The notes under the pieces: model-generated
What the model was told of the DNA's origin: nothing
Databases searched by the model: none
The model's input: the letters and a program-made list of their open reading frames with translations, nothing else
In this document: positions 5,505-25,246 of the stretch, one piece after another
How positions within the stretch are numbered: position 1 is the stretch's first letter
Layout: each line of letters opens with the position of its first letter
Virus record (IMG/VR): IMGVR_UViG_3300042448_000868
Location: 1 to 25,280 of that record
Reading direction: 5' to 3' (one strand)
DNA from: a virus
Length of the DNA: 25,280 nucleotides
Position numbers and translations under genes: made by a program

Positions 5505-6488
5505 ATGTTTATCGCTATTGAAGGCTCCGACGGTGCTGGTAAAAGCTCATTGATTGAGGCGATCAAGACTGAGCTGTCTACTCAGCAGCCAGATCTCCAG
5601 ATTACTGATCATCACAAGAGCAGACCGCCCGAGGAAACTCGCGAGTGTCTTCTTTACGAATACGCAACAAGTCTCGAAAACACAGATCTTTATACGTCAA
5701 CGCACATAGCAGACCGCTGGCATTGGGGCGAAAGAACCTATGCACCTATCAAGCGTCCTCACACTAATACCGACGGCTATGGCCTTCTCGGTAAGGCAGG
5801 CTGGCGCTGGGTAGAACTGTTTATGCAGTCACGCGGAATGGCTCAGTTTTTGTTATTCCAAAAGCTCGATGTAATCCGTGAGCGCGTCACAGAACGTGGC
5901 GATGACTACATTGATTCGTCAGAACTTGAGGCAATTTACAATGCGTATGTAGAAACATCTCAGGTTGCTATTCTGGCTGAGACAATTATGCCTGGCAACA
6001 CCGGTCTTGATAGTCTTCCGCAATTTGCGCGCCATATTATTGATGTAGCACGCGTGGCAGCCAAACGTGCCGAGTTCCTTCGGGCGTATCCGAACTACAT
6101 TGGCTCAGCACGACCGCAGCTCTTGATTGTAGGCGATGACAGAAGCGGTCACAATGAGTTCGCCAGCGCAACTAACCTGCCATTTGTGCCTACGGCCGAA
6201 AGTGATGCCGAGTTTCTTCTGAACTCTCTACCTGAAAATCTTTGGAAGCACGTCGGAATTGTCAGTACGAATGGTACTAGTGCAGATGAGCTATCAAATC
6301 TGCATAAGCAACTTGGCCGCCCAATGATTGCAGCTCTTGGCATTAAGGCAGAACGTCTCATTCTAAAAACTACAATCTACGTAAACGATTACGTCGGAAT
6401 TCGCGACCCGCAGTACGTGTGGAGCGACGCGCGTAATGAATATGGTTTACAGCTTCAGGAAATCAGCAAGAGAAAGAATACCAAATGA
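5505..6488 (+). CDS. Deoxynucleoside monophosphate kinase (thymidylate-kinase fold) with C-terminal glycosylase-like domain
   Basis: A protein of 327 residues. Residues 1-200 are a thymidylate-kinase-type P-loop domain: Walker A GSDGAGKS at 7-14, an ADRWHWGERTY substrate segment, and an arginine/acid-rich lid at ERGDDYID (about 130-137). It should transfer phosphate from ATP to a dNMP. Residues about 203-315 are not part of standard thymidylate kinase (about 210 residues). They read RPQLLIVGDD, PFVPTAESD, STNGTSADEL, GRPMIAALGIKAE and RDPQYVW, an order that recalls the uracil-DNA-glycosylase superfamily (VGD..., PFV, ALG..A, final xP motif). That assignment is tentative. Its stop overlaps the next gene (ATGA), which encodes a dCMP hydroxymethylase-like enzyme, so the substrate could be a modified dCMP, as for T4 gp1. 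Confidence 0.85.
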   Translation: MFIAIEGSDGAGKSSLIEAIKTELSTQQPDLQITDHHKSRPPEETRECLLYEYATSLENTDLYTSTHIADRWHWGERTYAPIKRPHTNTDGYGLLGKAGWRWVELFMQSRGMAQFLLFQKLDVIRERVTERGDDYIDSSELEAIYNAYVETSQVAILAETIMPGNTGLDSLPQFARHIIDVARVAAKRAEFLRAYPNYIGSARPQLLIVGDDRSGHNEFASATNLPFVPTAESDAEFLLNSLPENLWKHVGIVSTNGTSADELSNLHKQLGRPMIAALGIKAERLILKTTIYVNDYVGIRDPQYVWSDARNEYGLQLQEISKRKNTK

Positions 6489-7342
6489 GTGCATCTGCAA
6501 TCGAAATCGAGAATGGTGTCAACGGGTACGTAGACCTTGTTCAGTATGTTCTAAATAATGGCGAAGAGGCTGCTCCTCGCGGCATGAAGACACGCGAAAT
6601 TGAAGATGCGGTTATTCATATTGAAGATGTGTATCACACGCTGCCTTTAAAGGTTGGTCGTGGCACTGTCCCTGGCATCGGCGCAGTTGAAGCTTGCCAG
6701 CTTCTGTCTGGTACAAGTTTCCCTAAGACTGTTATTGCTGTCGGCCCTCAGTTTAAGAACTACACAGAAGACAATGGCGTATTCCATGGCGCGTACGGGT
6801 TGCGCACAAATGGCCAATATGACGCAGTCATTGACAAGCTCAAAAATGACTCCGACTCACGGCAGGCCGTTGTAACAATTTGGAATCCAGAGTACGACAA
6901 TCAGCCAAGCAAGCGCGACTACCCTTGCACTGTTCTTCATCAGTTCCGTATTCGCAACAACAAGCTCAACATGAGTGTCTACATGCGGTCAAACGATGTG
7001 TGGCTTGGCGCAGCATACGACTTCTTTCAGTTTACTCAAGTACAGATTGCATTGGCATCAGTTCTTGGCATCGAGCCTGGTAAGTACGCCCACCACGCTG
7101 GTTCACTTCATATCTACGAGCAACATTATGAAGCAGCTGAGAAGCTCACAAAGACCAATGAACTTGTCGACATCCCAAGCATTACCGGTGCAACATGGCT
7201 TGATGTTAAGGCGTCTGCAATGGCAGCTATCAACGCCGTCGATAACGGTACGATTCTTCCACGACTCAATGACGCAGAGGCATGGCACGCCAATGCTATG
7301 ATTACTGCGATTGAGAAGAACAAAAACAAGAAGGTAGACTAA
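6485..7342 (+). CDS. Thymidylate-synthase-fold deoxycytidylate (hydroxy)methylase
   Basis: A protein of 285 residues with the thymidylate synthase fold but the residues of dCMP hydroxymethylase. The catalytic cysteine, Cys148, is followed by Thr (DYPCTVLHQF), where thymidylate synthase has PCH. The base-reading asparagine of thymidylate synthase is Asp179 here (MRSNDVWLGAAYDFFQF). Cys148 and Asp179 have the same numbers as in T4 gp42. MRSNDV and GSLHIY also match the T4 enzyme (MRSNDV, GSLHVY), whereas thymidylate synthase has GD.HIY. Asp at this site selects cytosine over uracil in the family. Expected product: 5-hydroxymethyl-dCMP, or 5-methyl-dCMP if it acts as a methylase; sequence cannot separate these. 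It overlaps its neighbours by ATGA and TAATG. Automatic annotation would probably call it ThyA. Confidence 0.8.
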   Translation: MSASAIEIENGVNGYVDLVQYVLNNGEEAAPRGMKTREIEDAVIHIEDVYHTLPLKVGRGTVPGIGAVEACQLLSGTSFPKTVIAVGPQFKNYTEDNGVFHGAYGLRTNGQYDAVIDKLKNDSDSRQAVVTIWNPEYDNQPSKRDYPCTVLHQFRIRNNKLNMSVYMRSNDVWLGAAYDFFQFTQVQIALASVLGIEPGKYAHHAGSLHIYEQHYEAAEKLTKTNELVDIPSITGATWLDVKASAMAAINAVDNGTILPRLNDAEAWHANAMITAIEKNKNKKVD

Positions 7343-7527
7343 TGAGTGATTTTGACTTTGAAGAATCATCACCGCTGAAGGCAGCTTCTGTTGCAATGCA
7401 CGAATTGTACTCAACACTCAAGGATGCTGGTTTTTCACGACGCGACTCGTTAGAATTAGTTGCAAAGATCCTTACAGGCAGCATCTCAGATGCAATTGCA
7501 AACCAACAACAAGAAGACGATGAATGA
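7342..7527 (+). CDS. Small unknown acidic protein
   Basis: A protein of 61 residues, acidic at both ends, with a central helical stretch (MHELYSTLKDAGFSRRDSLE) resembling small proteins common in actinophage replication operons. No function is known to me. Its ATG overlaps the upstream stop (TAATG), with AGAAGG at 7330-7335 as ribosome binding site, and its stop overlaps the dCMP deaminase start (ATGA). This tight coupling and the even codon use support a real gene. Confidence 0.75.
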   Translation: MSDFDFEESSPLKAASVAMHELYSTLKDAGFSRRDSLELVAKILTGSISDAIANQQQEDDE

Positions 7528-8009
7528 CAGATACCAGACCATCTTGGGCTGAAACGTGGCTAGCTGTAGCCGAAACAATTGCTAGAAGATCGCGATGCTC
7601 ACGGGCACAGATGGGCGCAGTAATTGTCTCTAAAGACAATCATGTTGTAGCAACTGGCTACAATGGCCCAGCTGCTGATTGGCCAGAGCAAGGCGAGTGC
7701 ATGAATTGGTGCGAGCGAGCCCAAGGCAAAACAGCTCTTGATAATCTCTATGACGGCTGCCCAGCAATTCATGCTGAAGCAAATGCACTTTTATACGTTG
7801 ATAGATCGCGCAGTCTTGGCGGAACTATTTACATTGTCAGTGCACCGTGTATGCAGTGCGCCAAGCTAATCTCAAACTCAGGCATCGCTCATGTAGTCTG
7901 CAGATTAAAGAAAGCTGACATGCACCGAGACCCATACGGTGTGATAGAATACCTAATCCGATGCGGTATCGAAGTGACAACAATTAAGGACAAAGATGTC
8001 GACAACTGA
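7524..8009 (+). CDS. Deoxycytidylate (dCMP) deaminase family protein
   Basis: A protein of 161 residues, usual for the family. Zinc ligands and catalytic acid are clear: HAEAN with His83 and Glu85, and PCMQC with Cys109 and Cys112. The N-terminal ATGYNGPAADW segment matches the dCMP deaminase nucleotide-binding loop. The enzyme turns dCMP into dUMP, the precursor of dTMP. The TS-fold enzyme two genes upstream appears to use dCMP too, so the two would compete for one substrate. A separate thymidylate synthase is not in this window. ATGA overlap with the upstream gene and a 14-base overlap with the polymerase gene place it in the operon. Confidence 0.88.
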   Translation: MTDTRPSWAETWLAVAETIARRSRCSRAQMGAVIVSKDNHVVATGYNGPAADWPEQGECMNWCERAQGKTALDNLYDGCPAIHAEANALLYVDRSRSLGGTIYIVSAPCMQCAKLISNSGIAHVVCRLKKADMHRDPYGVIEYLIRCGIEVTTIKDKDVDN

Positions 8010-13935: not shown

Positions 13936-14510
13936 GCACACTTAACTGGGGAGACCTTGTCAAGGAAGCCGGCGATGTCGGCAGTTACGATCCACTGCCG
14001 GACGGCGACTACGACCTTACAGTCGTAGAAGCTACCGCAAAGGTATCGCAGTCAGGCAAAACAATGTTTGCTGTAAAGGCACAGGTTCAGACCGGTGCTC
14101 ACGCAAAGCGTCTTGTGTGGGACAACCTTGTTGTTTCAACTGACAACCCAACAGCACTCGGAATCTTCTTCCGCAAGATGAACGCACTTGGTCTTGGCCG
14201 CGAGTTTTTTGCAACAAGCCCAAGCAACGCTCAGATTGAGCAAGCACTTAAGGGTCGCTCGTTCCGTGCACAAATCGGTTCACGTACCTGGCAGGGTCAG
14301 AAGAAAAACGAAATCAAGGCGTACTACAGCGTTGTTGGTGCAACTGCCGCTCCTGCAGCTCCTGTTGCAGCAGCCGCGCCTGCACCTGCACCTGCACCAG
14401 CGCCTGCAGCCGCACCAGCGCCTGCAGCCGCACCAGTTGCAGAAGCACCAGCCGTAGCACCAGTTGCAGAAGCACCAGCTGCTGCAGCACCTCCAGCAGC
14501 GCCTTTCTGA
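13932..14510 (+). CDS. DUF669-like ssDNA-binding protein with Ala/Pro tail
   Basis: A protein of 192 residues. Residues 1-135 (LPDGDYDLTVVEATAK, SGKTMFAVKAQV, then RSFRAQIGSRTWQGQKKNEI) resemble DUF669-type phage proteins, which act as single-stranded DNA-binding partners of Sak4-like recombinases. From about residue 138 the protein is almost only Ala, Pro and Val, encoded by GCACCTGCA-like repeats at 14341-14505. The tail ends in PPAAPF. Bacterial SSB ends in an acidic tip finishing with PF; here PF is kept but the acids are absent. It overlaps the Sak4-like gene by 4 bases (ATGA), supporting joint function. Confidence 0.83.
   Translation: MSTLNWGDLVKEAGDVGSYDPLPDGDYDLTVVEATAKVSQSGKTMFAVKAQVQTGAHAKRLVWDNLVVSTDNPTALGIFFRKMNALGLGREFFATSPSNAQIEQALKGRSFRAQIGSRTWQGQKKNEIKAYYSVVGATAAPAAPVAAAAPAPAPAPAPAAAPAPAAAPVAEAPAVAPVAEAPAAAAPPAAPF
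14341..14508 (+). repeat. Low-complexity Ala-Pro coding repeat
   Basis: Imperfect tandem repetition of GCACCTGCA and CCAGCGCCTGCAGCC units codes for the C-terminal linker of the ssDNA-binding protein. GTTGCAGAAGCACCAG occurs twice, at 14427 and 14463. It creates long false reading frames on both strands. Repeat number is likely to vary between relatives. Confidence 0.8.
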
Positions 14511-14601: not shown

Positions 14602-15804
14602 ATGCGAATCTTAATGACAGGTTTCACTGCGCTTCAGATTAACACTGAAAGACGCACAATTCAAAAGATCGACGTACCCGCTTCAATTGTAAAGGCACTT
14701 GAAGAATGCGGGCACGAAGTTGACTGGAGACGAGTTACTCCAGGCGAAGATTTATCTATGTACGACGTTGCATGGGTAAACCTCGCACCACTAAACTCAC
14801 TCAACGGGCGCCAAGGTGCAATGGGAGCACTGTATGTGCTAGGCTCTGGTGTCCCAGCCGTTGGGTTTTTTGACGACTGGCAATTTAGTTCTGTGTTTAA
14901 CGGCTGCCGTGCTTTAAAGAATCACCCAGAACTTCTTTATAAGTATCTTCTTACTGGGCAGCGCGGCGATGAAGGCGCAACATACTTTAGTTACGCAGAC
15001 GCTGAAGCTGCAGTTGAGCGTATTCGTTTGACTGACCCAGAAGGTGCTGCAAAGTGCGGCATCGGAAGATACTTTTTCAACGACACTGATGAAAACATCA
15101 AACAATACGAAGGCCAGCTCGTTGCAGCAGCTACCTCAGTGCTCGAAGAACGCTGGGCGCAGGGAATGATTCCAGCGTGCCCAATGTACTCGTTTGGAGA
15201 TCGTTCGCTTGTTCGTAAGCGTATGCCAGCAGTTATGTCTGGCATTGAGGCACTTGACCCAAGCTCAACCATTTACGACATTCTTGCTACATCTGAACCT
15301 AAGGATGCAAGTCTTAAGGAACGCAAGTGGGTGCTTGGCGCTTTAATGCCACATGATACTTGGCTTGAAAAGAAAAAGCCTGAGTGGCCAGTTGAAATTA
15401 TTGGTAGTCGCAAGCTGATTAAAAAGTTTGGCGGACAGCGTCTTGACAGTGAAGCAGACGTTCTTTCGTTCTACAATGACTACTGGGGTATTCTTTCGCC
15501 TCCGTACCCTCACGCGGGCTCTGGATGGTGGAGGAGCCGGTTTATGTATGCTGCTAGGGTTGGCTCAATTCTTGTAACTGATAAAGGCGAAGGAAACCCA
15601 CTCGGCAAGCCATATAAGCTTACGATTAAAGAAGTAGAAGCTATGAGCGATATCGAACTTGCTGAAGCCGCAAAGGCGCAAGGAGATGCTTTACGCCCTT
15701 ACATGCCAGACTACAGTTCTTTTGTTGAACACTGCAATCGCATTGTTCATCGAGCTCTCGCTGAAGACAAGGGTTTGAAGTTTAACCCAGACGGCACAAG
15801 GTAG
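14602..15804 (+). CDS. Glycosyltransferase-like protein, paralogue 1
   Basis: A protein of 400 residues counted from ATG 14602. A longer frame back to 14464 runs through the Ala/Pro repeat of the upstream gene and across the promoter, so it was not used. The N-terminus MRILMTGFTALQ followed by SIVKALEECGHEVDWRRV and YDVAWVNLAP is the Rossmann opening of a GT-B glycosyltransferase. A conserved C-terminal stretch reads ILSPPYPHAGSGWWRSRF. The next gene is a diverged copy. No membrane segment or secretion signal is present, so it is cytoplasmic. With a dCMP hydroxymethylase-like enzyme in the genome, transfer of sugar to modified DNA bases is an attractive role but is inferred; surface or other sugar transfer remains possible. 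Confidence 0.75.
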   Translation: MRILMTGFTALQINTERRTIQKIDVPASIVKALEECGHEVDWRRVTPGEDLSMYDVAWVNLAPLNSLNGRQGAMGALYVLGSGVPAVGFFDDWQFSSVFNGCRALKNHPELLYKYLLTGQRGDEGATYFSYADAEAAVERIRLTDPEGAAKCGIGRYFFNDTDENIKQYEGQLVAAATSVLEERWAQGMIPACPMYSFGDRSLVRKRMPAVMSGIEALDPSSTIYDILATSEPKDASLKERKWVLGALMPHDTWLEKKKPEWPVEIIGSRKLIKKFGGQRLDSEADVLSFYNDYWGILSPPYPHAGSGWWRSRFMYAARVGSILVTDKGEGNPLGKPYKLTIKEVEAMSDIELAEAAKAQGDALRPYMPDYSSFVEHCNRIVHRALAEDKGLKFNPDGTR

Positions 15805-16817
15805 TGGCTACTGTACTTCTGACGGGTATGACATCTCCGCAATCATCGCGGCGACTTAATTCAAAGTCACTATCATTTGCTGGTGCACTTTCTTCTATTC
15901 TTGAAGAACATGGCCACAGTGTTGATTGGTTGTCACCGTCAGTTTTGCTTACTAAAAAAGATCTTGCTAGCTACGATGCCATAGTTCTTGGCGTTGCACC
16001 AGCATTGAGCATTACGTCTAACAAAGCGTATGGCGTACTAAGCATGATTGATTTGCTCAAGGATGATGACAGACTTGTCTTATTCATTGACGCACCGGAT
16101 CCGTCAAGAATCACTGCCAATCTTCGCGCTGTAGAAAAAGAAAGCGGTAAACTGTTTACTGCGTTTAACTCAATGCGCAAACAGTACGAGCATGTCATTC
16201 TTAATGAAAAAGCAAAGATATCAGTTCTAGGCGGAATTAGTTTTCTTGCGAATAGCGAATGGCCAACTACTTTGTACCCATCTATGCCGTGGATTACAAA
16301 TGAAACAGTCTCTGCTAAACTGCCTGCCGGCGCAGCTAATTCATTAGTTGGCGTATGCGTGGACTCTTACTATGTAGCTGACGGCATACCAAGAATTTCA
16401 CGTGACAAAGTACGACGCTGGTCAGTAGACACAGACGCTACTAAGTGGGCTACGTCTACACTTTCTTCTTTAAGTCTTCCATACGAAGGAATGAAAAGTA
16501 AAAGAAGTGCTGACGATAATGATGTGTTTGATCTCATATCAAAATCTATTGGCTCACTTCTCAGTCCTTCAAAGGACGGGCTGGTCTGGTGGAGTCATCG
16601 CTGGGTTCAATCATTGAATGCGGCTACACCAATCGCCAGTGAATGGCGTGTAACTTCTAAGGTGGGGTCCGCATGGTCACACCTTGCGGCTGGCATTGAA
16701 GAAATGTCATACATTGACATGTATGAATTGGCAGTGTCTCAAAAAGAAGAATTCATCGCGTCGATACCTTCGCGGGATACAGTAAAAGAAAAATTAGAAA
16801 CAACGTTAGGAATATAA
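15804..16817 (+). CDS. Glycosyltransferase-like protein, paralogue 2
   Basis: A protein of 337 residues. The GTG at 15804 shares its first base with the upstream stop (TAGTG), with AAGG at 15799-15802. It is paralogous to the preceding protein: VLLTGMTSPQ matches ILMTGFTALQ, ILEEHGHSVDWLSP matches ALEECGHEVDWRRV, YDAIVLGVAP matches YDVAWVNLAP, and LLSPSKDGLVWWSHRWV matches ILSPPYPHAGSGWWRSRF. The middle is shorter by about 60 residues. The first domain keeps the GT-B-like Rossmann pattern. The tandem copies have diverged strongly, so they may use different acceptors or sugars, or form a heterodimer. No membrane segment is seen. The catalytic role is inferred from the fold pattern only. Confidence 0.72.
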   Translation: MATVLLTGMTSPQSSRRLNSKSLSFAGALSSILEEHGHSVDWLSPSVLLTKKDLASYDAIVLGVAPALSITSNKAYGVLSMIDLLKDDDRLVLFIDAPDPSRITANLRAVEKESGKLFTAFNSMRKQYEHVILNEKAKISVLGGISFLANSEWPTTLYPSMPWITNETVSAKLPAGAANSLVGVCVDSYYVADGIPRISRDKVRRWSVDTDATKWATSTLSSLSLPYEGMKSKRSADDNDVFDLISKSIGSLLSPSKDGLVWWSHRWVQSLNAATPIASEWRVTSKVGSAWSHLAAGIEEMSYIDMYELAVSQKEEFIASIPSRDTVKEKLETTLGI

Positions 16818-16819
16818 AG

Positions 16820-17287
16820 ATGACAGTTCTATTTAACAAGTGGCTTCAAAAGACAATGCAACTTCAGAAAGATGTTTACAACGCAGACTACAGCAAGTTT
16901 CATGGCAACGAGCCAGAAGATCTCAATACATTAATTGAGTACATTCGCTGGAACATGCTTGCGATTGACGATGAACTTGCTGAGGTTCGTCAAGCTATTT
17001 CATGGAAGCCTTGGCAACACGATGAACCATACGCAGACCGCAAGGAAATTGTTAAGGAATGCGTAGATGTACTGCATTTTGTTGCAAACATTCTTTGTGC
17101 CGCTGGCGCAACTGACGCAGAGCTTGATGAAGAGTATCTCAAGAAAATGCAGAAGAATGCTGATCGTCAAAAGAACGGCTACCGAGTTCTTGATGAAGGT
17201 ATGAAGTGTTCAATGTGCTCGCGCGCGCTTGATGATTACGATGTTACTTCTTGTGGTGTCGCGGCTTGCCCGTCTAAGAGGCCGTAA
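16820..17287 (+). CDS. All-alpha NTP pyrophosphatase (dimeric dUTPase/dCTPase-like) with zinc-ribbon tail
   Basis: A protein of 155 residues. Residues 35-120 show the all-alpha pyrophosphatase pattern: DELAEV with Glu52 and Glu55, the ISWKPW segment typical of dimeric dUTPases, and EIVKECVDVLHFVANIL with Glu80 and Asp83, which together hold magnesium. MazG, dimeric dUTPase and T4 gp56 dCTPase share this fold. Such an enzyme removes dUTP or dCTP; in T4 it keeps plain cytosine out of DNA. The C-terminal 28 residues contain Cys130, Cys133, Cys145 and Cys150, a likely zinc-binding tail. It follows the two sugar-transferase-like genes after 2 bases. Substrate is not decidable by eye; MazG-like activity is an alternative. 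Confidence 0.75.
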   Translation: MTVLFNKWLQKTMQLQKDVYNADYSKFHGNEPEDLNTLIEYIRWNMLAIDDELAEVRQAISWKPWQHDEPYADRKEIVKECVDVLHFVANILCAAGATDAELDEEYLKKMQKNADRQKNGYRVLDEGMKCSMCSRALDDYDVTSCGVAACPSKRP

Positions 17288-18074: not shown

Positions 18075-19340
18075 ATGTCTGATTTGACATTTATTGACTG
18101 TAATGGACTCGCAGGTTTCATGAGCTACGGCTTTGTGAAGTCTGGTATGGAGATGACCCTCCGCACAGGTACTTTGAACTTTGGCAACCCAGTTGCTGAA
18201 CTCAATAGAAAACACCTTGGTGACAACTGGTCATCGTTCTTCTCAAATAGTGAAGAAGAATGGCCAGTAATGAACGCTGACATTGTTATGGGTTGCCCAC
18301 CGTGCTCCGGTTGGTCGGTGTGGTCTGGCCCTGCCAACCGTGGACCTGAAGCTGCTGCACATGAGCATACGCGTGCGTTTATGCGATACGCTGCTAAGGT
18401 AAAGCCAAAAATGATTATCTTCGAATGCGTACAGCAAGCGTATACGCAAGGCCGTGAAAGTATGGTCAAGTACCGAGACATGGTTGAAGAACTTTCTGGT
18501 AAGAAGTACGACCTGTATCACGTCAAGATGAACAACCTCCAGGTTGGCGGATTCTCATATCGTGCTCGTTATTTCTGGACTGCCGTTGAGCAGGGAATGC
18601 CATTTGGCGCAGTTGCCACGACTCCTGAGAAGATGCCCACAATGATGGACGTCATTGGCGACCTCGAAAATTGTGAGATCATGTGGGAGTCGCAGTCGTA
18701 CAGCGGCGAAGGTACAGACTTTGTTAAAGATCTTCGCAATCAAAGCGGTACGGTAAACGGCCATATGGCAAAGAACAATATGAACTCCACACGCATTAAA
18801 GACATTTTTGACATTGTAGGCAACGATGGTTGGAAGCCGATGATGCCGCTTAACAAAGCACTGCGAAGTGCTGTTGACAAGAACAGTGGAAACTTCCCAC
18901 AGACATGGATTGGTCTTTCTGAAAAGATTATTGAGAATGATTTTTACATGGGTTTCTCAATGCCAAGCCGCTGGGACGGGAACTCATGGGCGCATGTTCT
19001 CACAGGTAGCGCTCTTGATCACGTAATTCACCCTACGCAACCAAGAACCATTACTCACCGAGAAGCCGCAAGAATTCAAGGTTTGCCTGACGACTGGGAA
19101 TTTGTAGAAGCAAAAGGATACTCAGCGTTGTCATCGACTTGGGGCAAGGCAGTTGCTGCACAAGCTGCTAAGTGGATTGGTGATGCTGCTGTTACTGCGC
19201 TGAAAGGCGAACCCAGTGGGCCATCTGGTGAACTTATCGGCGACCGCGAATACTTGATTGATACCGACAAGGGATTCAGCCGTAGCTACGTTGCTAAGGG
19301 CTGGTACCCAAACAAAGCAACCAAGGCTGACCGCGAGTAG
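18075..19340 (+). CDS. DNA cytosine-C5 methyltransferase
   Basis: A protein of 421 residues. Motif I is FIDCNGLAGFMSYGF, motif IV GCPPCSGWS with nucleophile Cys77, motif VI FECV (117-119), motif VIII SYRARYFW, motif IX THREAARIQGLPDDW, motif X WGKAVAAQAAKWI. This is a full set for an enzyme transferring methyl from S-adenosylmethionine to C5 of cytosine in DNA. Motif VI normally reads ENV; here Asn is Cys while the glutamate is kept. The variable region (about 190-320) sets the target sequence, which cannot be read off. The C-terminal 60 residues past motif X are extra. No cognate endonuclease is next to it, so it is probably protective. Its coexistence with a dCMP hydroxymethylase-like enzyme is unusual. 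Confidence 0.9.
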   Translation: MSDLTFIDCNGLAGFMSYGFVKSGMEMTLRTGTLNFGNPVAELNRKHLGDNWSSFFSNSEEEWPVMNADIVMGCPPCSGWSVWSGPANRGPEAAAHEHTRAFMRYAAKVKPKMIIFECVQQAYTQGRESMVKYRDMVEELSGKKYDLYHVKMNNLQVGGFSYRARYFWTAVEQGMPFGAVATTPEKMPTMMDVIGDLENCEIMWESQSYSGEGTDFVKDLRNQSGTVNGHMAKNNMNSTRIKDIFDIVGNDGWKPMMPLNKALRSAVDKNSGNFPQTWIGLSEKIIENDFYMGFSMPSRWDGNSWAHVLTGSALDHVIHPTQPRTITHREAARIQGLPDDWEFVEAKGYSALSSTWGKAVAAQAAKWIGDAAVTALKGEPSGPSGELIGDREYLIDTDKGFSRSYVAKGWYPNKATKADRE

Positions 19341-20981: not shown

Positions 20982-22049
20982 CTAGTTAAGGTATTCAAGA
21001 TCATACCAGCCCTTGTCCCACAAAGACTGCAATCTTGTAAAGTATCTATCGTACATCTTTGCTACAGCGTCAAGTCCGTATCTGTCTTTAGCGTATTTGC
21101 TAATAGCAGCACGATCTAAGCTTTTTGCATCTTCTGCCGCATTTATAAACTCAAGTAAAGTGTGACAGCGGTACCCGGTTATGCCGTCAATGACAGTTTC
21201 GGTAAACGCGCCCCAGTCGGTAGAGATAATCGGAGACCCGCAAGCCATTGCTTCAATCGCCACCGTCCCAAAAGGTTCAACGTAAATAGTTGGGGTAAAA
21301 GTAGCAATTGCACCGCCCATAAGTTTAGCGCGTTCTTCTGTGCCTACAACGCCGACGTATTCGCCGTACTCTGGCGGTGTGCCTTGCCCGGCGATAATAA
21401 GACGCTTGCCAAGTTGTTTGCAAACGTCTACGGCAATTTGATAGCCCTTGCGCTCAATCAAACGCCCAATGTACAAGTAGTAGTCGCTTGACTCTTCTTG
21501 AAGTGGAAAGTCTTTAGTATCAATGTAGCTTGGAATAACTGTGTCATAGAACTTACCGTCAAGAGCATGAGGGTCTGTAACTTTTGAGCCATAGCACGAG
21601 TGCATCCAAGCGTACGACTCAAAGACTTTGTACTGCGCAAATGAGCCGCCATAGCCAATACCGAACTCAACGCTTAGTTCCTGTGGAAATGCATCTGCAA
21701 TTGGCTTTGACGCGTAGCCAGCAATTAAACAAATAAAGTCTTTGTGTTCAAGACGTTGTTTAATTCCAGCAGTAACGTTTGCATTAAAGTTTTGCCAGTG
21801 CGGAAGATTCCAATCAAATGACGCTGCAGAGTAGTGACTATTTCCAACTGCAGCTAAACGTTCTTCTTCAGTAATACACGTAATGTGCTCATCACAAGGA
21901 GCTTCATTAAACTCGCCGGCGTATAAGAAAACAGCGTGCCCAAGACTTTTCATCATGATGCAGAACTTGCGGACTTTTTCTGTGTACGCACATGCGGTGA
22001 AATCTAAAGTGGTATTTGTATGCGGTAGACTAACTACGTGAAATCTCAT
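20982..22049 (-). CDS. Glycosyltransferase, GT4-like (GT-B fold)
   Basis: A protein of 355 residues from ATG 22049 (MRFHVVSLPHTN). An in-frame ATG at 22058 would overlap the upstream gene more; 22049 gives an ATGA overlap with its stop. The N-terminal Rossmann domain ends near residue 180. YIGRLIERKGY (193-203) opens the second domain, and EPFGTVAIEAMACGSPII is the GT4 E-x7-E nucleotide-sugar motif. The fold transfers sugar from an activated donor; the acceptor is unknown. It is more classical than the two plus-strand sugar-transferase-like proteins and not obviously related to them. Its GC content (34 of 60 bases in one sampled line) is much higher than that of the halogenase region upstream. 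Confidence 0.85.
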   Translation of the reverse strand: MRFHVVSLPHTNTTLDFTACAYTEKVRKFCIMMKSLGHAVFLYAGEFNEAPCDEHITCITEEERLAAVGNSHYSAASFDWNLPHWQNFNANVTAGIKQRLEHKDFICLIAGYASKPIADAFPQELSVEFGIGYGGSFAQYKVFESYAWMHSCYGSKVTDPHALDGKFYDTVIPSYIDTKDFPLQEESSDYYLYIGRLIERKGYQIAVDVCKQLGKRLIIAGQGTPPEYGEYVGVVGTEERAKLMGGAIATFTPTIYVEPFGTVAIEAMACGSPIISTDWGAFTETVIDGITGYRCHTLLEFINAAEDAKSLDRAAISKYAKDRYGLDAVAKMYDRYFTRLQSLWDKGWYDLEYLN

Positions 22050-22333
22050 TGGCCCCACCAGAAGTGTTTGAGGATAGAAAGACTAGCCAAGACAACCCAT
22101 GTAACGTTAAAAAGGATGATTGTTGGGAGAGTCTTGCGTGTGGATGTCCAAATCAAGGCAACGCTTGAAATGATAGCAAAAATATAAAGCCACCAGAACT
22201 GCTTGCCTAAAAGGAGACCAGGGAAAATAATCGCAATTTTTGTAGCAAAACCCCATGCCTCAACTGTGTTCACACGATTCCAGTAAGTTCTGGAACTCAT
22301 AGTTTTAACGGCGTCAACTATTTTTGATACCAT
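22046..22333 (-). CDS. Small membrane protein, three predicted helices
   Basis: A protein of 95 residues with hydrophobic stretches at about 27-43, 47-63 and 70-88, separated by short basic or polar turns. The first 25 residues are basic and amphipathic. A Trp-rich FWWLY and final HFWWGQ would sit at membrane interfaces. I do not recognise a family. It overlaps the upstream gene by 16 bases and the downstream glycosyltransferase by 4, so it belongs to the same operon and may anchor or supply substrate for the glycosyltransferase; that is a guess. Holin-like function is possible, but there is no lysin next to it. Confidence 0.72.
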   Translation of the reverse strand: MVSKIVDAVKTMSSRTYWNRVNTVEAWGFATKIAIIFPGLLLGKQFWWLYIFAIISSVALIWTSTRKTLPTIILFNVTWVVLASLSILKHFWWGQ

Positions 22334-23073
22334 TTTTTGTTTTTTGCTTCCGAATCGACTTTGATCTTTTTTCGCCTATACGGGCCAGAGGTCCCGCCAG
22401 ACGGAATTATATTCCCAAAACCAAAACCGCGAGACTCGACGTATTTGAATAACGATTCATCTTGAAACACTATGTTTGAAACGTCATCACTTCGTTTGAA
22501 TGGGATTATGTGAAGCATCGGGGTTCCGTATTTAATGGAAAAATCTGTATTTGTTTTTATGTTTAAAACAATATTTATAACATGGTAATAGTCTGTGTGA
22601 ACAACTGCTGGCAGAACATCATAATCAGGGCTTGGTTCCCAGTGAACTGGTAAAACGATGCATGACCACCCCGGCGCTGTCTCAATTCTCCAGGGTGTTG
22701 TTATTTTTGGATATGGCATTGTGTCTAAATTTCTATTTTTAGACACAGGGCATTCTCCTGTTGAGCCAAATGGAAATCCATCTATACTGATGTGTCTTAA
22801 TGGAGGACTCATTTGGTCTATGCGTGACTCCCACATGTTCACTTCAAAATTTGGCCTGAAATAAACATTTGTCCACAGAGGAACAGTAATTCCTGTCGTC
22901 AAATAGTCGCTTACGCCTGCGCACGATCTTATGGAGCCTTGTCCTTTTCTCATTCTTCTAAACCATGAAGGCATTGAAACTTGAGTGTTTATAAATGGAG
23001 GCATCTCCATAAGGCGATTATCTTCTGGTGTTATGCGAATTTCACCAGGTTTAATTTTTTTTCTAGAATTCAT
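22318..23073 (-). CDS. Unknown beta-rich protein next to halogenase
   Basis: A protein of 251 residues. Conserved-looking stretches are PSWFRRMRKGQGSIRSCAG, GITVPLWTNVYFRPN, TTPWRIETAPGWSCIVLPV (125-143), LPAVVHTDYYHVINIVLNI and GTPMLHIIPFKR (183-194). From memory, this order occurs in uncharacterised phage and bacterial proteins of about 230 residues. The beta-strand pattern with a proline-glycine turn hints at a cupin-like barrel, without a visible metal triad. The N- and C-termini are lysine-rich. It overlaps the halogenase gene by 11 bases, so the two are translated together; it may be a partner or process the halogenase product. AT-rich like its upstream neighbours. Confidence 0.72.
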   Translation of the reverse strand: MNSRKKIKPGEIRITPEDNRLMEMPPFINTQVSMPSWFRRMRKGQGSIRSCAGVSDYLTTGITVPLWTNVYFRPNFEVNMWESRIDQMSPPLRHISIDGFPFGSTGECPVSKNRNLDTMPYPKITTPWRIETAPGWSCIVLPVHWEPSPDYDVLPAVVHTDYYHVINIVLNIKTNTDFSIKYGTPMLHIIPFKRSDDVSNIVFQDESLFKYVESRGFGFGNIIPSGGTSGPYRRKKIKVDSEAKNKKWYQK

Positions 23074-24556
23074 CGTCTATTTCGTCTATCTCAAGTAGCG
23101 CTTGACGATGGTCAACAAGTTCGTGAGAGTGTCTACTGTTTCTAATGTCATGAACTTCTTTTGTAACAATTTCTCTAAGACCCATTCTGTCAATAGCAAC
23201 TGATGAAGGGGTGGTTGGAATCAAACCCTGGCCTTGCATGACGTGCACAAAGTGTGGGACATGAAACATCGTGTTATGTTTTCCTGAAATGTCGTACCGA
23301 GATGGTGGTTTTTCTGACCACAATTCAATAAGCTCTTGCAGTTCTGAATTTATCCGCATTTCTGCTTGCGCTTTCCAAAAAGGAGTATCTCTCCTATCGG
23401 AAATGTAGTGAAGACGAATCATCGTCAATATATTTCTCATCATTTCTGTCATGTTTTTATTGTATTTGTTTTGTATTTTTTCATATCCATGTTGATACGA
23501 AGAAAGACTTTCTATTATTGACTTTGCCTGAATGATGCTGCTACCAATACTTGTCGCCTCAAGAGGTTCAACAAAAGACGACGCAAGCCCAACCGCAACA
23601 CAATTTTTTACCCACTGGGTTTCTAAGAACCCGGCGTCAAACTTAAAAGTTCTGGGATTGTCTGGAACTTTGTATCCCGTCAGTTGCTGCACTTCGTTAA
23701 TCGCTTCATCTTGACTTATGTGAGCAGATGAATAAACATACCCATTTCCACGCCGTTCTTGAGTGGGAATTTCAAACACCCAACCGCTACTCATTGCACG
23801 TGCCCGTGTGTACGGCCTTATTTGCCCATTTGGGTCAGACTCCGTTGGGAATGCTATTGCGGAATCAGCAAGCAAGTACGGAGAAAAACTAGTCCACTTA
23901 GTATTCCCAAGAGATGTCATCAATACTCTGTTAAAACCACTAGCGTCAAACCAAAAGTCGGCAGAAATGCATCCGCTTAATTCTGTATCAACAGAGTCAA
24001 TACAACCATTTTCAAAGTTAAGATTAACTTTGCTTACAGAATCATCAATAAATCTAATCATCCTGCTAAAGCACAAGCTTGTCAAATAATCATTAAGTTT
24101 AAATGTGTCAAAATGAAATTGATTTGTTGTTCTATGCAGATTTTGTCTTGCTACTTGATTTCTTACTAATCCAATACTCGCTGTTTGAGAAGTGATTAGT
24201 TTTTCATTTTCTATAAAATGCAAGTAAGATGCAAATAGTCCGTGCGCAAAAATTTCATCAGGTCCGCTAACGCTATGAAAATAGTCCGGAATCTTCTCTG
24301 TCCAGTTTTCAAACCTAATCCCGTACTTGTGCGTTGCTGAAGTGTTTGAAATAAGTTCTTCTGTTGGGATATTGCATAGGTCCATAAACTGACGCCAATG
24401 CTCAGTCGAGCCTTCGCCAACACCAATGATTCCAATTTTTGAAGACGCTACGATTGTTATTTCTGAGCTTGGGAACGCTTTTCTTAGTGTTAACGCTGTG
24501 ATCAATCCAGCAGTACCAGAACCAACAATGCCAATAGACATATTTTTTGTTTGCAT
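23063..24556 (-). CDS. FAD-dependent halogenase (tryptophan-halogenase family)
   Basis: A protein of 497 residues, close to family length. The FAD site is GIVGSGTAGL (GxGxxG at 12-17), followed by IGVGEGSTEHW. Lys77 in ATHKYGIRFENW matches the catalytic lysine of PrnA-type halogenases (Lys79), which carries the active halogen. EPLEATSIG (330-338) is the conserved acidic segment. The WxWxIP signature is altered to WVFEIP (259-264), keeping IP but losing the second Trp, then RRGNGYVYS. These enzymes use reduced FAD, oxygen and halide to halogenate aromatic substrates. A cyanophage relative, VirX1, has been shown to iodinate small aromatics. AGAGAG before the ATG supports the start. No flavin reductase is seen nearby. 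Confidence 0.88.
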   Translation of the reverse strand: MQTKNMSIGIVGSGTAGLITALTLRKAFPSSEITIVASSKIGIIGVGEGSTEHWRQFMDLCNIPTEELISNTSATHKYGIRFENWTEKIPDYFHSVSGPDEIFAHGLFASYLHFIENEKLITSQTASIGLVRNQVARQNLHRTTNQFHFDTFKLNDYLTSLCFSRMIRFIDDSVSKVNLNFENGCIDSVDTELSGCISADFWFDASGFNRVLMTSLGNTKWTSFSPYLLADSAIAFPTESDPNGQIRPYTRARAMSSGWVFEIPTQERRGNGYVYSSAHISQDEAINEVQQLTGYKVPDNPRTFKFDAGFLETQWVKNCVAVGLASSFVEPLEATSIGSSIIQAKSIIESLSSYQHGYEKIQNKYNKNMTEMMRNILTMIRLHYISDRRDTPFWKAQAEMRINSELQELIELWSEKPPSRYDISGKHNTMFHVPHFVHVMQGQGLIPTTPSSVAIDRMGLREIVTKEVHDIRNSRHSHELVDHRQALLEIDEIDDEF

Positions 24557-24565
24557 TTAAACTCT

Positions 24566-25246
24566 CTATTTTTTAATACACAAAGCCAAAGACACTGTGC
24601 TGGCGTAATGGTACACATCGAAAAGGCCGCTATCAACGATTTCAGTCATCGCTGTTGTTCCTACGCTTATCTCCGACCGATATGCTGAGCCAAAATCAGA
24701 GGCATTGTGCATTATAAGAACACCGCCCGGTTTTACTCGTTCAAGAAGTTTTTGCAAAACATTTGGAAGATACGAACATATCCCTAAAAAACCAATAACT
24801 AAATCGTAGCTATCTTCGCCATCAAAAAATCTGTCATAAGAAATTGTTTCAACATTATTAGCATTGTAACCGTTTGGCGAACGCAAAAGCATCGCAGAAG
24901 TTAAATTGTTTAAAATATGAACATCTTCTATAAGCCCAATCGCTCTGTCTGTTGTGTAAATAGTTGACAAAACAAGAGCATTTGTAGGTTTTATCAATCT
25001 AATTAGCACTTCTATTTCTTCGGTAGCGGCGTCTATTAGTTCTGTAAGACCGTTGGTGTATCCATGAAAAGCATGATATTCATCAACTAAGAGAACTCTC
25101 TCTGGTTCAATCGAGGCAGACTCAATTATAGAATTTGCTTGAACTGTAAGTGCTGTAAGTTTTTCACGGGTATTTAACACTGATGAAGGCTCTGCATGCG
25201 AAGTAAATCGCAAGGACCATGAAGAAATAATGTCAGAAGTAATCAT
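24566..25246 (-). CDS. Class I methyltransferase-like protein
   Basis: A protein of 226 residues. SYDLVIGFLGICSYL (146-160) and LLERVKPGGVLIMHNASDFG (167-186) are the middle and post-motif strands of a class I S-adenosylmethionine methyltransferase. The expected glycine-rich motif I is weak (NALVLSTIYTTD), so catalytic activity is uncertain. GAGGA 9 bases before ATG 25246 supports the start. It lies 9 bases upstream of the halogenase, and the pair could modify the same small molecule or protein. AT-rich (18 of 60 GC in line 24901). Alternative: a degenerate, non-catalytic Rossmann protein. Confidence 0.72.
   Translation of the reverse strand: MITSDIISSWSLRFTSHAEPSSVLNTREKLTALTVQANSIIESASIEPERVLLVDEYHAFHGYTNGLTELIDAATEEIEVLIRLIKPTNALVLSTIYTTDRAIGLIEDVHILNNLTSAMLLRSPNGYNANNVETISYDRFFDGEDSYDLVIGFLGICSYLPNVLQKLLERVKPGGVLIMHNASDFGSAYRSEISVGTTAMTEIVDSGLFDVYHYASTVSLALCIKK

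Follow-up and report, generated by a model that had tools for sequence, protein, structure and literature searches.

Tandem Paralogs in a Phage Genome Fragment

The window analyzed here is a whole IMG/VR virus record of 25,280 bases (IMGVR_UViG_3300042448_000868). It comes from a phage infecting freshwater Actinobacteria and is kin to the Actinomycetia phage DSL-LC01 of Dishui Lake, to which its AAA gene is 90% and its PolA gene 80% identical. Two adjacent plus-strand genes, GT1 and GT2, encode glycosyltransferase-like proteins; the GT2 start overlaps the GT1 stop by one base, and an alternative, longer GT1 open reading frame (ORF) with a TTG start begins at position 14464. An original prediction, made from the sequence of the window, had described the two products as a duplicated pair that may decorate modified DNA. 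Fold and gene context largely support that proposal; from them we infer activity, sugar, and acceptor. In our view GT1 and GT2 are very probably duplicated DNA glycosyltransferases that act post-replication on phage DNA containing 5-hydroxymethylcytosine (5hmC).

A single BLASTP comparison aligns the two proteins at 19% identity over ∼380 columns (E 1e-7), and profile-profile alignment joins them over 323 columns with an E value of 3.2e-42 and a probability of 100%. The profile alignment takes in both the ILMTG/VLLTG block at the N terminus and the WW block at the C terminus, the two shared elements from which a duplication had been proposed. GT1 and GT2 are paralogs, homologous from end to end.

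Neither protein is identified as a glycosyltransferase by Pfam or NCBIfam (the Pfam search extended to E values of 1, with HMMER filters on). GT1 belongs to phrog_14998 (E 1.3e-17), as do all 17 GT1 members of alignment A1; this widespread family is recorded as of “unknown function.” GT2 does not belong to it and matches neither another PHROG nor any other family searched. At E values up to 1, PF09198, the family of T4 β-glucosyltransferase (β-GT), matches neither GT1 nor GT2, whereas T4 β-GT itself scores 9e-98; PF11440, the family of T4 α-glucosyltransferase (α-GT), likewise matches its namesake and neither of the pair. A sequence link to T4 α-GT, T4 β-GT, RB69 ORF003c, or the RB69 cluster proteins was sought with HMMER and hhalign profiles, and nothing significant emerged (hhalign probabilities of at most 8% against T4 β-GT and at most 2% against RB69 ORF003c). 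No PDB chain matches the GT1 profile below E 1.6. By sequence, the GT1/GT2 family is separate from T4 α-GT, T4 β-GT, and RB69 ORF003c, in line with the earlier finding that the pair could not be placed in a known DNA glucosyltransferase family. The literature searched contains no description of the family; it did not include Lee et al. 2025 and Mahler et al. 2025, either of which may treat some of its T4-like members.

Predicted Fold and Conserved Residues

AlphaFold2 models were built solely from the window and its IMG/VR relatives, and have a predicted local distance difference test score (pLDDT) of 89.0 and a predicted template modeling score (pTM) of 0.88 for GT1, and of 94.7 and 0.91 for GT2. 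Both proteins are predicted to be full-length GT-B folds, in which two Rossmann-like domains align with GT-B enzymes along almost the entire chain. Of the 1000 PDB chains placed highest by Foldseek, the best VIA-align match of each model is T4 β-GT (1nzd), with a Z score of 17.8 for GT1 (303 residues, 4.0 Å) and 18.7 for GT2 (295 residues, 3.7 Å), which bears out the fold anticipated by the original prediction. The cellular GT-B enzymes SenB (16.8 for both) and PimA (16.5 for GT1, 15.9 for GT2) follow, as does T4 α-GT (15.8 and 15.4). In the Foldseek ranking, T4 β-GT comes first for GT1 (E 6e-6); for GT2, a glycosyltransferase of phage HY126 is fourth and T4 α-GT fifth.

Asp92 of GT1 is present in all 124 GT1 sequences, and Asp96 of GT2 in all 87 GT2 sequences. 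Local hhalign alignment with full extension, which is of low probability, pairs both residues with Asp100 of T4 β-GT; global mode gave a meaningless alignment. Asp100 is the catalytic base of T4 β-GT, and the PDB entry 1nzd is its Asp100Ala mutant. Gly8, Gly63, Trp263, Trp281, and Glu299 of GT2 are also found in 87 of 87 sequences. The conserved glutamate of the two families (E330 in GT1, E299 in GT2) is only suggestive of a nucleotide-sugar pocket. A further pairing, of the C-terminal arginines GT1 R313 and GT2 R266 with T4 R269, appears with alignments A1, A2, and A4, and we do not rely on it because it is absent with alignment A3.

The resemblance to T4 extends to its genome, which also has dCMP hydroxymethylase and dCTPase-type genes and, counting α-GT, two glycosyltransferases. 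In contrast to T4, where β-GT is a single gene without significant sequence similarity to the pair, the window carries tandem paralogs, and relatives of GT1 are accompanied by UDP-galactopyranose mutase (UGM) or TET genes. The structural match to α-GT is weaker than that to β-GT. The Tet-associated glycosyltransferases (TAGTs) are comparable in that, according to passages of two papers, they are second glycosyltransferases on sugar-bearing phage DNA bases (PMC13390438, PMC13216743); they are, however, described as GT-A enzymes in a passage of the latter (PMC13216743), whereas the GT1 and GT2 models are GT-B.

A Proposed Pathway to a Hydroxymethylated Base

The presence of a dCMP hydroxymethylase-like enzyme in the same genome, as stated in the original prediction, is upheld by the gene at position 6485 (the 6485 gene). 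Asp179 of its product falls at position 177 of E. coli thymidylate synthase and is accompanied by Thr at position 147, as in T4 gp42, and the catalytic Cys of the PCT motif is kept, again as in T4 gp42. Position 177 is instead Asn in the dUMP hydroxymethylase of SPO1 and in four td-type synthases. Positions 177 and 147 are those that best separate modified from unmodified contigs in the MetaGPA association study (PMC8670742). The 6485 protein aligns with the CMP 5-hydroxymethylase MilA over residues 29–221, and with the best true synthase over ∼108–220. Its counterpart in DSL-LC01 is annotated as thymidylate synthase. The 6485 protein, however, scores far too low for the NCBIfam synthase models, with 90.3 bits against an equivalog cut-off of 174.55 and scores under the cut-offs of the other seven models. 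By the Asp and Cys criteria, the 6485 gene is a predicted dCMP-type hydroxymethylase homolog.

The acceptor could instead be 5-hydroxycytosine. In that case the 6485 product would act like the 5-hydroxy-dCMP synthases of RB69 and Mosigvirus NP, and GT1 would place its sugar directly on O5. Synthases of this kind, which serve Mosigvirus phages such as RB69, are homologous to dCMP hydroxymethylase, as stated in sections of PMC13390438; moreover, Morganella phage Rgz1 and Providencia phage PSTRCR_127 combine an RB69-type synthase with a GT1 relative. The active-site motifs of the 6485 protein (RSNDVWLG, GSLHIY) are nevertheless close to those of T4 gp42 (RSNDVVFG, GSLHVY) and unlike those of RB69p048 and Rgz1 gp33 (RSQNCAVV or RSQNCAIV, VSAHVF), which makes this acceptor improbable.

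The RB69 system nonetheless offers a parallel. RB69 ORF003c, a putative DNA arabinosyltransferase associated with 5-hydroxycytosine arabinosylation, is likewise a GT-B candidate encoded with a sugar-supply cluster, according to part of PMC6024577. In Rgz1, the GT1 relative lies between genes for arabinose-5-phosphate isomerase and an NTP-transferase, the position equivalent to that in the RB69 arabinose cluster. The window differs from RB69 in that its synthase is of the T4 type. We also considered whether GT1 is itself the arabinosyltransferase of RB69 or LC53, and found no support for this: the GT1 profile matches none of eight phages with RB69-type synthases (RB69, Serratia LC53, Thanatos-2, and five others). 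Serratia LC53 is reportedly the model phage of Mahler et al. The profile does not match T4, SPO1, or PTm5 either; only Rgz1, a positive control picked beforehand, matched.

Removal of dCTP would be served by the MazG-like/dUTPase_2 gene that adjoins the 3′ end of GT2, in accordance with the dCTPase-like gene that the pair had been said to precede. PF08761 is common to its product and to T4 gp56, the T4 dCTPase.

The association with base modification extends to relatives. We searched 24 GT1 records whole (10 phage records drawn from across the groups that match GT1 in the public phage set and 14 IMG/VR records, chosen by hand and not at random). A synthase with the dCMP-type Asp is present in 17, and five hold a TET/JBP dioxygenase above the Pfam cut-off, an enzyme type that can likewise yield a 5-hydroxymethyl base. 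G010, which is among the 17, additionally shows TET/JBP matches below that cut-off. The remaining two are Vibrio phage D484, with an Asn-type synthase only and no TET/JBP, and a 14-kb fragment with neither gene. This distribution is the opposite of one confined mainly to phages lacking dCMP hydroxymethylase. The background of the TET query is nine of 50,697 phage records, and TET lies upstream of GT1 in all 17 C48C1-like loci with upstream sequence.

TET/JBP, GT1, and UGM occur together in marine phages (L009, L115–L133). No C5-methyltransferase was found by PF00145 in the five whole TET records searched; its homolog is present in 15 of the 24 GT1 records. In these marine phages the target of TET might be thymine, as for JBP, and the product a 5-hydroxymethyluracil that carries a sugar.

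Gene Order, Relatives, and Neighboring Genes

A pattern scan of IMG/VR with GT1 returned 169 close relatives, from which 80 loci were kept; 21 additional loci came from DSL-LC01-like GT1s and 19 from marine C48C1-like GT1s. GT2 lies directly 3′ of GT1 in 75 of 75 loci, among the 80, that have 350 nt or more of downstream sequence, and GT2 is in turn followed by MazG in 65 of 65. The GT1-GT2-MazG order is not due to chance. The DSL-LC01 GT2 as an IMG/VR query matched nothing, so these pattern scans reach close relatives only.

The whole GT1-GT2-MazG-methyltransferase cassette is also present in cultured Gordonia phages such as GMA2 and Sixama, which carry GT1, further glycosyltransferases, GT2, MazG, the C5-methyltransferase, and WhiB in nearly the order of the window. 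One or two extra glycosyltransferases stand beside GT1 and GT2 in these phages (L002 9065–10315, L003 9451–10638, L004 8972–10938), which may point to longer sugar chains on the DNA.

In 84,980 species genomes, a scan turned up just three loci on two contigs of metagenome-assembled genomes (MAGs), with a sensitivity limited because both patterns derive from one conserved block. Both contigs pair GT1 with UGM. On the one filed as a Bacteroidetes MAG (L166 6144–10087), a dCMP-type synthase, dCMP deaminase, GT1, and UGM lie within 4 kb as a compact cassette that is possibly self-sufficient. The other, a 186-kb “Hyphomicrobiales” MAG contig (L167/L168), carries one GT1-UGM stretch twice, near either end, and resembles a terminally redundant phage genome.

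A non-DNA acceptor for the pair, such as a tail or capsid protein, a host surface glycan, or a small molecule, has to be weighed against these surroundings. GT-B is a general fold, as the scores of SenB and PimA illustrate, and elsewhere in the window, on the minus strand, lie genes for a GT4-type glycosyltransferase and a tryptophan halogenase. The pair itself, however, adjoins no membrane or polysaccharide gene, and its neighbors are replication and nucleotide enzymes. Neither GT1 nor GT2 has a membrane segment (highest 19-residue Kyte-Doolittle means of 1.44 and 1.37), as had been noted originally together with the lack of adjoining surface-polysaccharide genes. Relatives stand beside TET/JBP in one lineage and occur with dCMP-type synthases in most others, and cellular genomes yielded only the few loci above. 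A non-DNA acceptor is therefore very unlikely, and a surface-glycan role as the principal function was rejected on neighboring genes, relatives' context, and the few loci in the species-genome scan.

Table 1. Genes of the Window Discussed in the Text
Feature	Position	Strand	Remarks
P-loop (deoxy)nucleoside monophosphate kinase-like protein	5505–6488	+	Weak dTMP-kinase matches
dCMP hydroxymethylase-type thymidylate-synthase homolog (6485 gene), predicted	6485–7342	+	D179, Thr at position 147
dCMP deaminase	7524–8009	+	Pfam and PHROG matches
GT1, predicted GT-B glycosyltransferase of phrog_14998, proposed first DNA sugar transferase	14602–15804	+	400 aa from ATG
GT2, paralogous predicted GT-B glycosyltransferase, proposed second DNA sugar transferase	15804–16817	+	337 aa, GTG start
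MazG-like/dUTPase_2 all-alpha pyrophosphohydrolase, dCTPase-like	16820–17287	+	PF08761, E 4e-11
C5-cytosine DNA methyltransferase homolog, travels with the cassette	18075–19340	+	Motif IV Cys and motif VI Glu in 66/66
GT4-type glycosyltransferase (phrog_3408) and tryptophan halogenase, separate from GT1/GT2	20982–24556	−	Halogenase PF04820, E 4e-102

The kinase-like protein upstream of the 6485 gene is a possible 5-hydroxymethyl-dCMP kinase; its dTMP kinase match is N-terminal only, and after residue ∼150 there is nothing convincing. The minus-strand cluster as a whole (20982–25246) comprises the GT4-type glycosyltransferase, a 95-aa ORF, a 251-aa protein of unknown function, the halogenase, and a 226-aa ORF without a Pfam match. 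DSL-LC01 has a glycosyltransferase and a halogenase at the equivalent place, adjoining collagen-like genes.

Rapid Divergence of GT2

In 226 pairs with AAA genes 90%–95% identical, the median identities are 78% for GT1, 77% for MazG, 71% for the C5-methyltransferase, and 41% for GT2. For the pair L018/L024, synonymous divergence (dS) is alike in the two genes (0.69 and 0.73), and nonsynonymous divergence (dN) is 0.014 for GT1 and 0.051 for GT2. The dN/dS of GT2 is about 0.06–0.14 in the four informative pairs, those with GT2 dS <1; purifying selection still acts on GT2. The gene that differs most in DSL-LC01 is GT1, with 30% identity compared with 91% for the adjacent SSB gene. Because GT2 evolves fast and the DSL-LC01 GT1 is so divergent, the sugar step seems to be one that phages exchange or diversify.

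Rapid divergence could also mean that GT2 is a degenerate duplicate without catalytic activity, retained as a binding or regulatory partner of GT1. Consistent with this, GT2 has WWSxR in place of the GT1 pattern GWWRxR, and its Arg266 is found in just 74 of 87 sequences. The invariance of Asp96 and of the five other GT2 residues noted above, together with the low dN/dS, makes such a role extremely unlikely.

Alternatively, GT1 and GT2 might work in parallel, sharing the hydroxymethyl base and giving different anomers or sugars, as T4 α-GT and β-GT do, to resist different defenses. Parts of PMC13216743 state that the two T4 enzymes act on the same 5hmC and that the second helps against several defenses at once. 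Fold and invariant Asp are common to GT1 and GT2, and the fast evolution of GT2 would fit a defense-facing role. The distribution of the two genes, however, fits better with a dependence of GT2 on the GT1 product. In the public phage set of 50,697 records, 59 match GT1 and 14 match GT2; all 14 of the latter also match GT1, and 45 of the 59 GT1 records have no GT2 match. Most other GT2 loci were reached via GT1, so the asymmetry is biased except in this search of the public set with GT2. We regard parallel action as possible, though rather doubtful, and favor GT1 acting first and GT2 second because in the public set GT1 often occurs without a GT2 match and no record has GT2 alone.

Sugar Supply

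UGM is present in 10 of the 24 GT1 records, in lineages that are unrelated to one another: DSL-LC01-like phages, T4-like phages of Erwinia and Aeromonas, and C48C1-like phages. It lies immediately downstream of GT1 in all 17 C48C1-like loci whose sequence continues past GT1. Within the 21 DSL-LC01-like loci, UGM is adjacent to GT1 in L096–L100, L105, and L107, and was not seen beside it in L094, L095, L101–L104, and L108–L114 (L106 is not testable); the 83-kb record of L103, searched whole, contains no UGM. The DSL-LC01 paper reads its UGM as a cell-wall gene (PMC10611076), and an Agrobacterium phage UGM is likewise read as a cell-wall gene in part of PMC6630229.

Assessment and Proposed Pathway

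The proposal that GT1 and GT2 glycosylate 5hmC in phage DNA draws on their paralogy, the GT-B fold nearest to T4 β-GT, the invariant Asp, the dCMP-type synthase, the gene order, and the co-occurrence in relatives. Several observations weigh against it. The similarity of the pair to T4 β-GT is structural, with no significant similarity in sequence, and T4 β-GT leads SenB and PimA by just ∼1 Z unit for GT1 and ∼2 for GT2; because cellular GT-B enzymes score nearly as high, fold alone cannot settle the acceptor. Arg266 of GT2 is variable. The 253-kb Vibrio phage D484, in which the GT1 match is partial, lacks both a dCMP-type synthase and TET. UGM was rejected as a strict marker of GT1, since close DSL-LC01-like GT1 relatives occur with and without it. 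The window, a 25-kb fragment, has no recognized sugar-nucleotide gene and no UGM, and so gives no pointer to the sugar donor. The C5-methyltransferase that travels with the cassette, found in none of the five TET records, has intact catalytic residues, which would be odd if every C5 were hydroxymethylated. Finally, no assay of any enzyme of the family was found in the literature searched.

The GT1 relative of D484 stands beside a QueC-like gene (L008 6386–7309, jumbo Vibrio phages) and possibly acts on another acceptor base.

We propose the following pathway, in which substrate, product, sugar, enzyme activity, order of action, and protective role are all inferred. The MazG-like enzyme would strip dCTP to give dCMP, which the 6485 enzyme would turn into 5-hydroxymethyl-dCMP; a kinase and the host would then produce 5-hydroxymethyl-dCTP for incorporation into DNA. 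GT1, probably using Asp92 as catalytic base, would link the sugar of a nucleotide-sugar donor to the hydroxymethyl oxygen, and GT2, with Asp96 as base, would add a second sugar onto the first or decorate leftover bases. The resulting sugar coat may shield phage DNA from host restriction and other defenses. A precedent for keeping two such enzymes comes from T4, which needs its second glycosyltransferase when several defenses meet, according to a section of PMC13216743.

More broadly, and tentatively, the family may form a further, independent GT-B group among DNA glycosyltransferases, one that in many lineages uses furanose sugars (galactofuranose or arabinofuranose) supplied via phage UGM, on bases made by dCMP hydroxymethylase or TET/JBP, with GT2 of actinobacterial phages as a second, variable sugar layer. 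Our literature search on galactofuranose, bacteriophage, and hydroxymethylcytosine found, in the parts of the sources it covered, no report of furanosylated phage DNA. If the pair does glycosylate phage DNA, a family of “unknown function” would become a set of testable DNA-sugar enzymes present in freshwater actinobacterial, Gordonia, T4-like, and marine TET-bearing phages, and hypermodified DNA would be predicted in lakes and seas. Adjacent UGM genes would then predict furanosylated DNA, and the enzymes themselves might serve to label 5hmC with new sugars.

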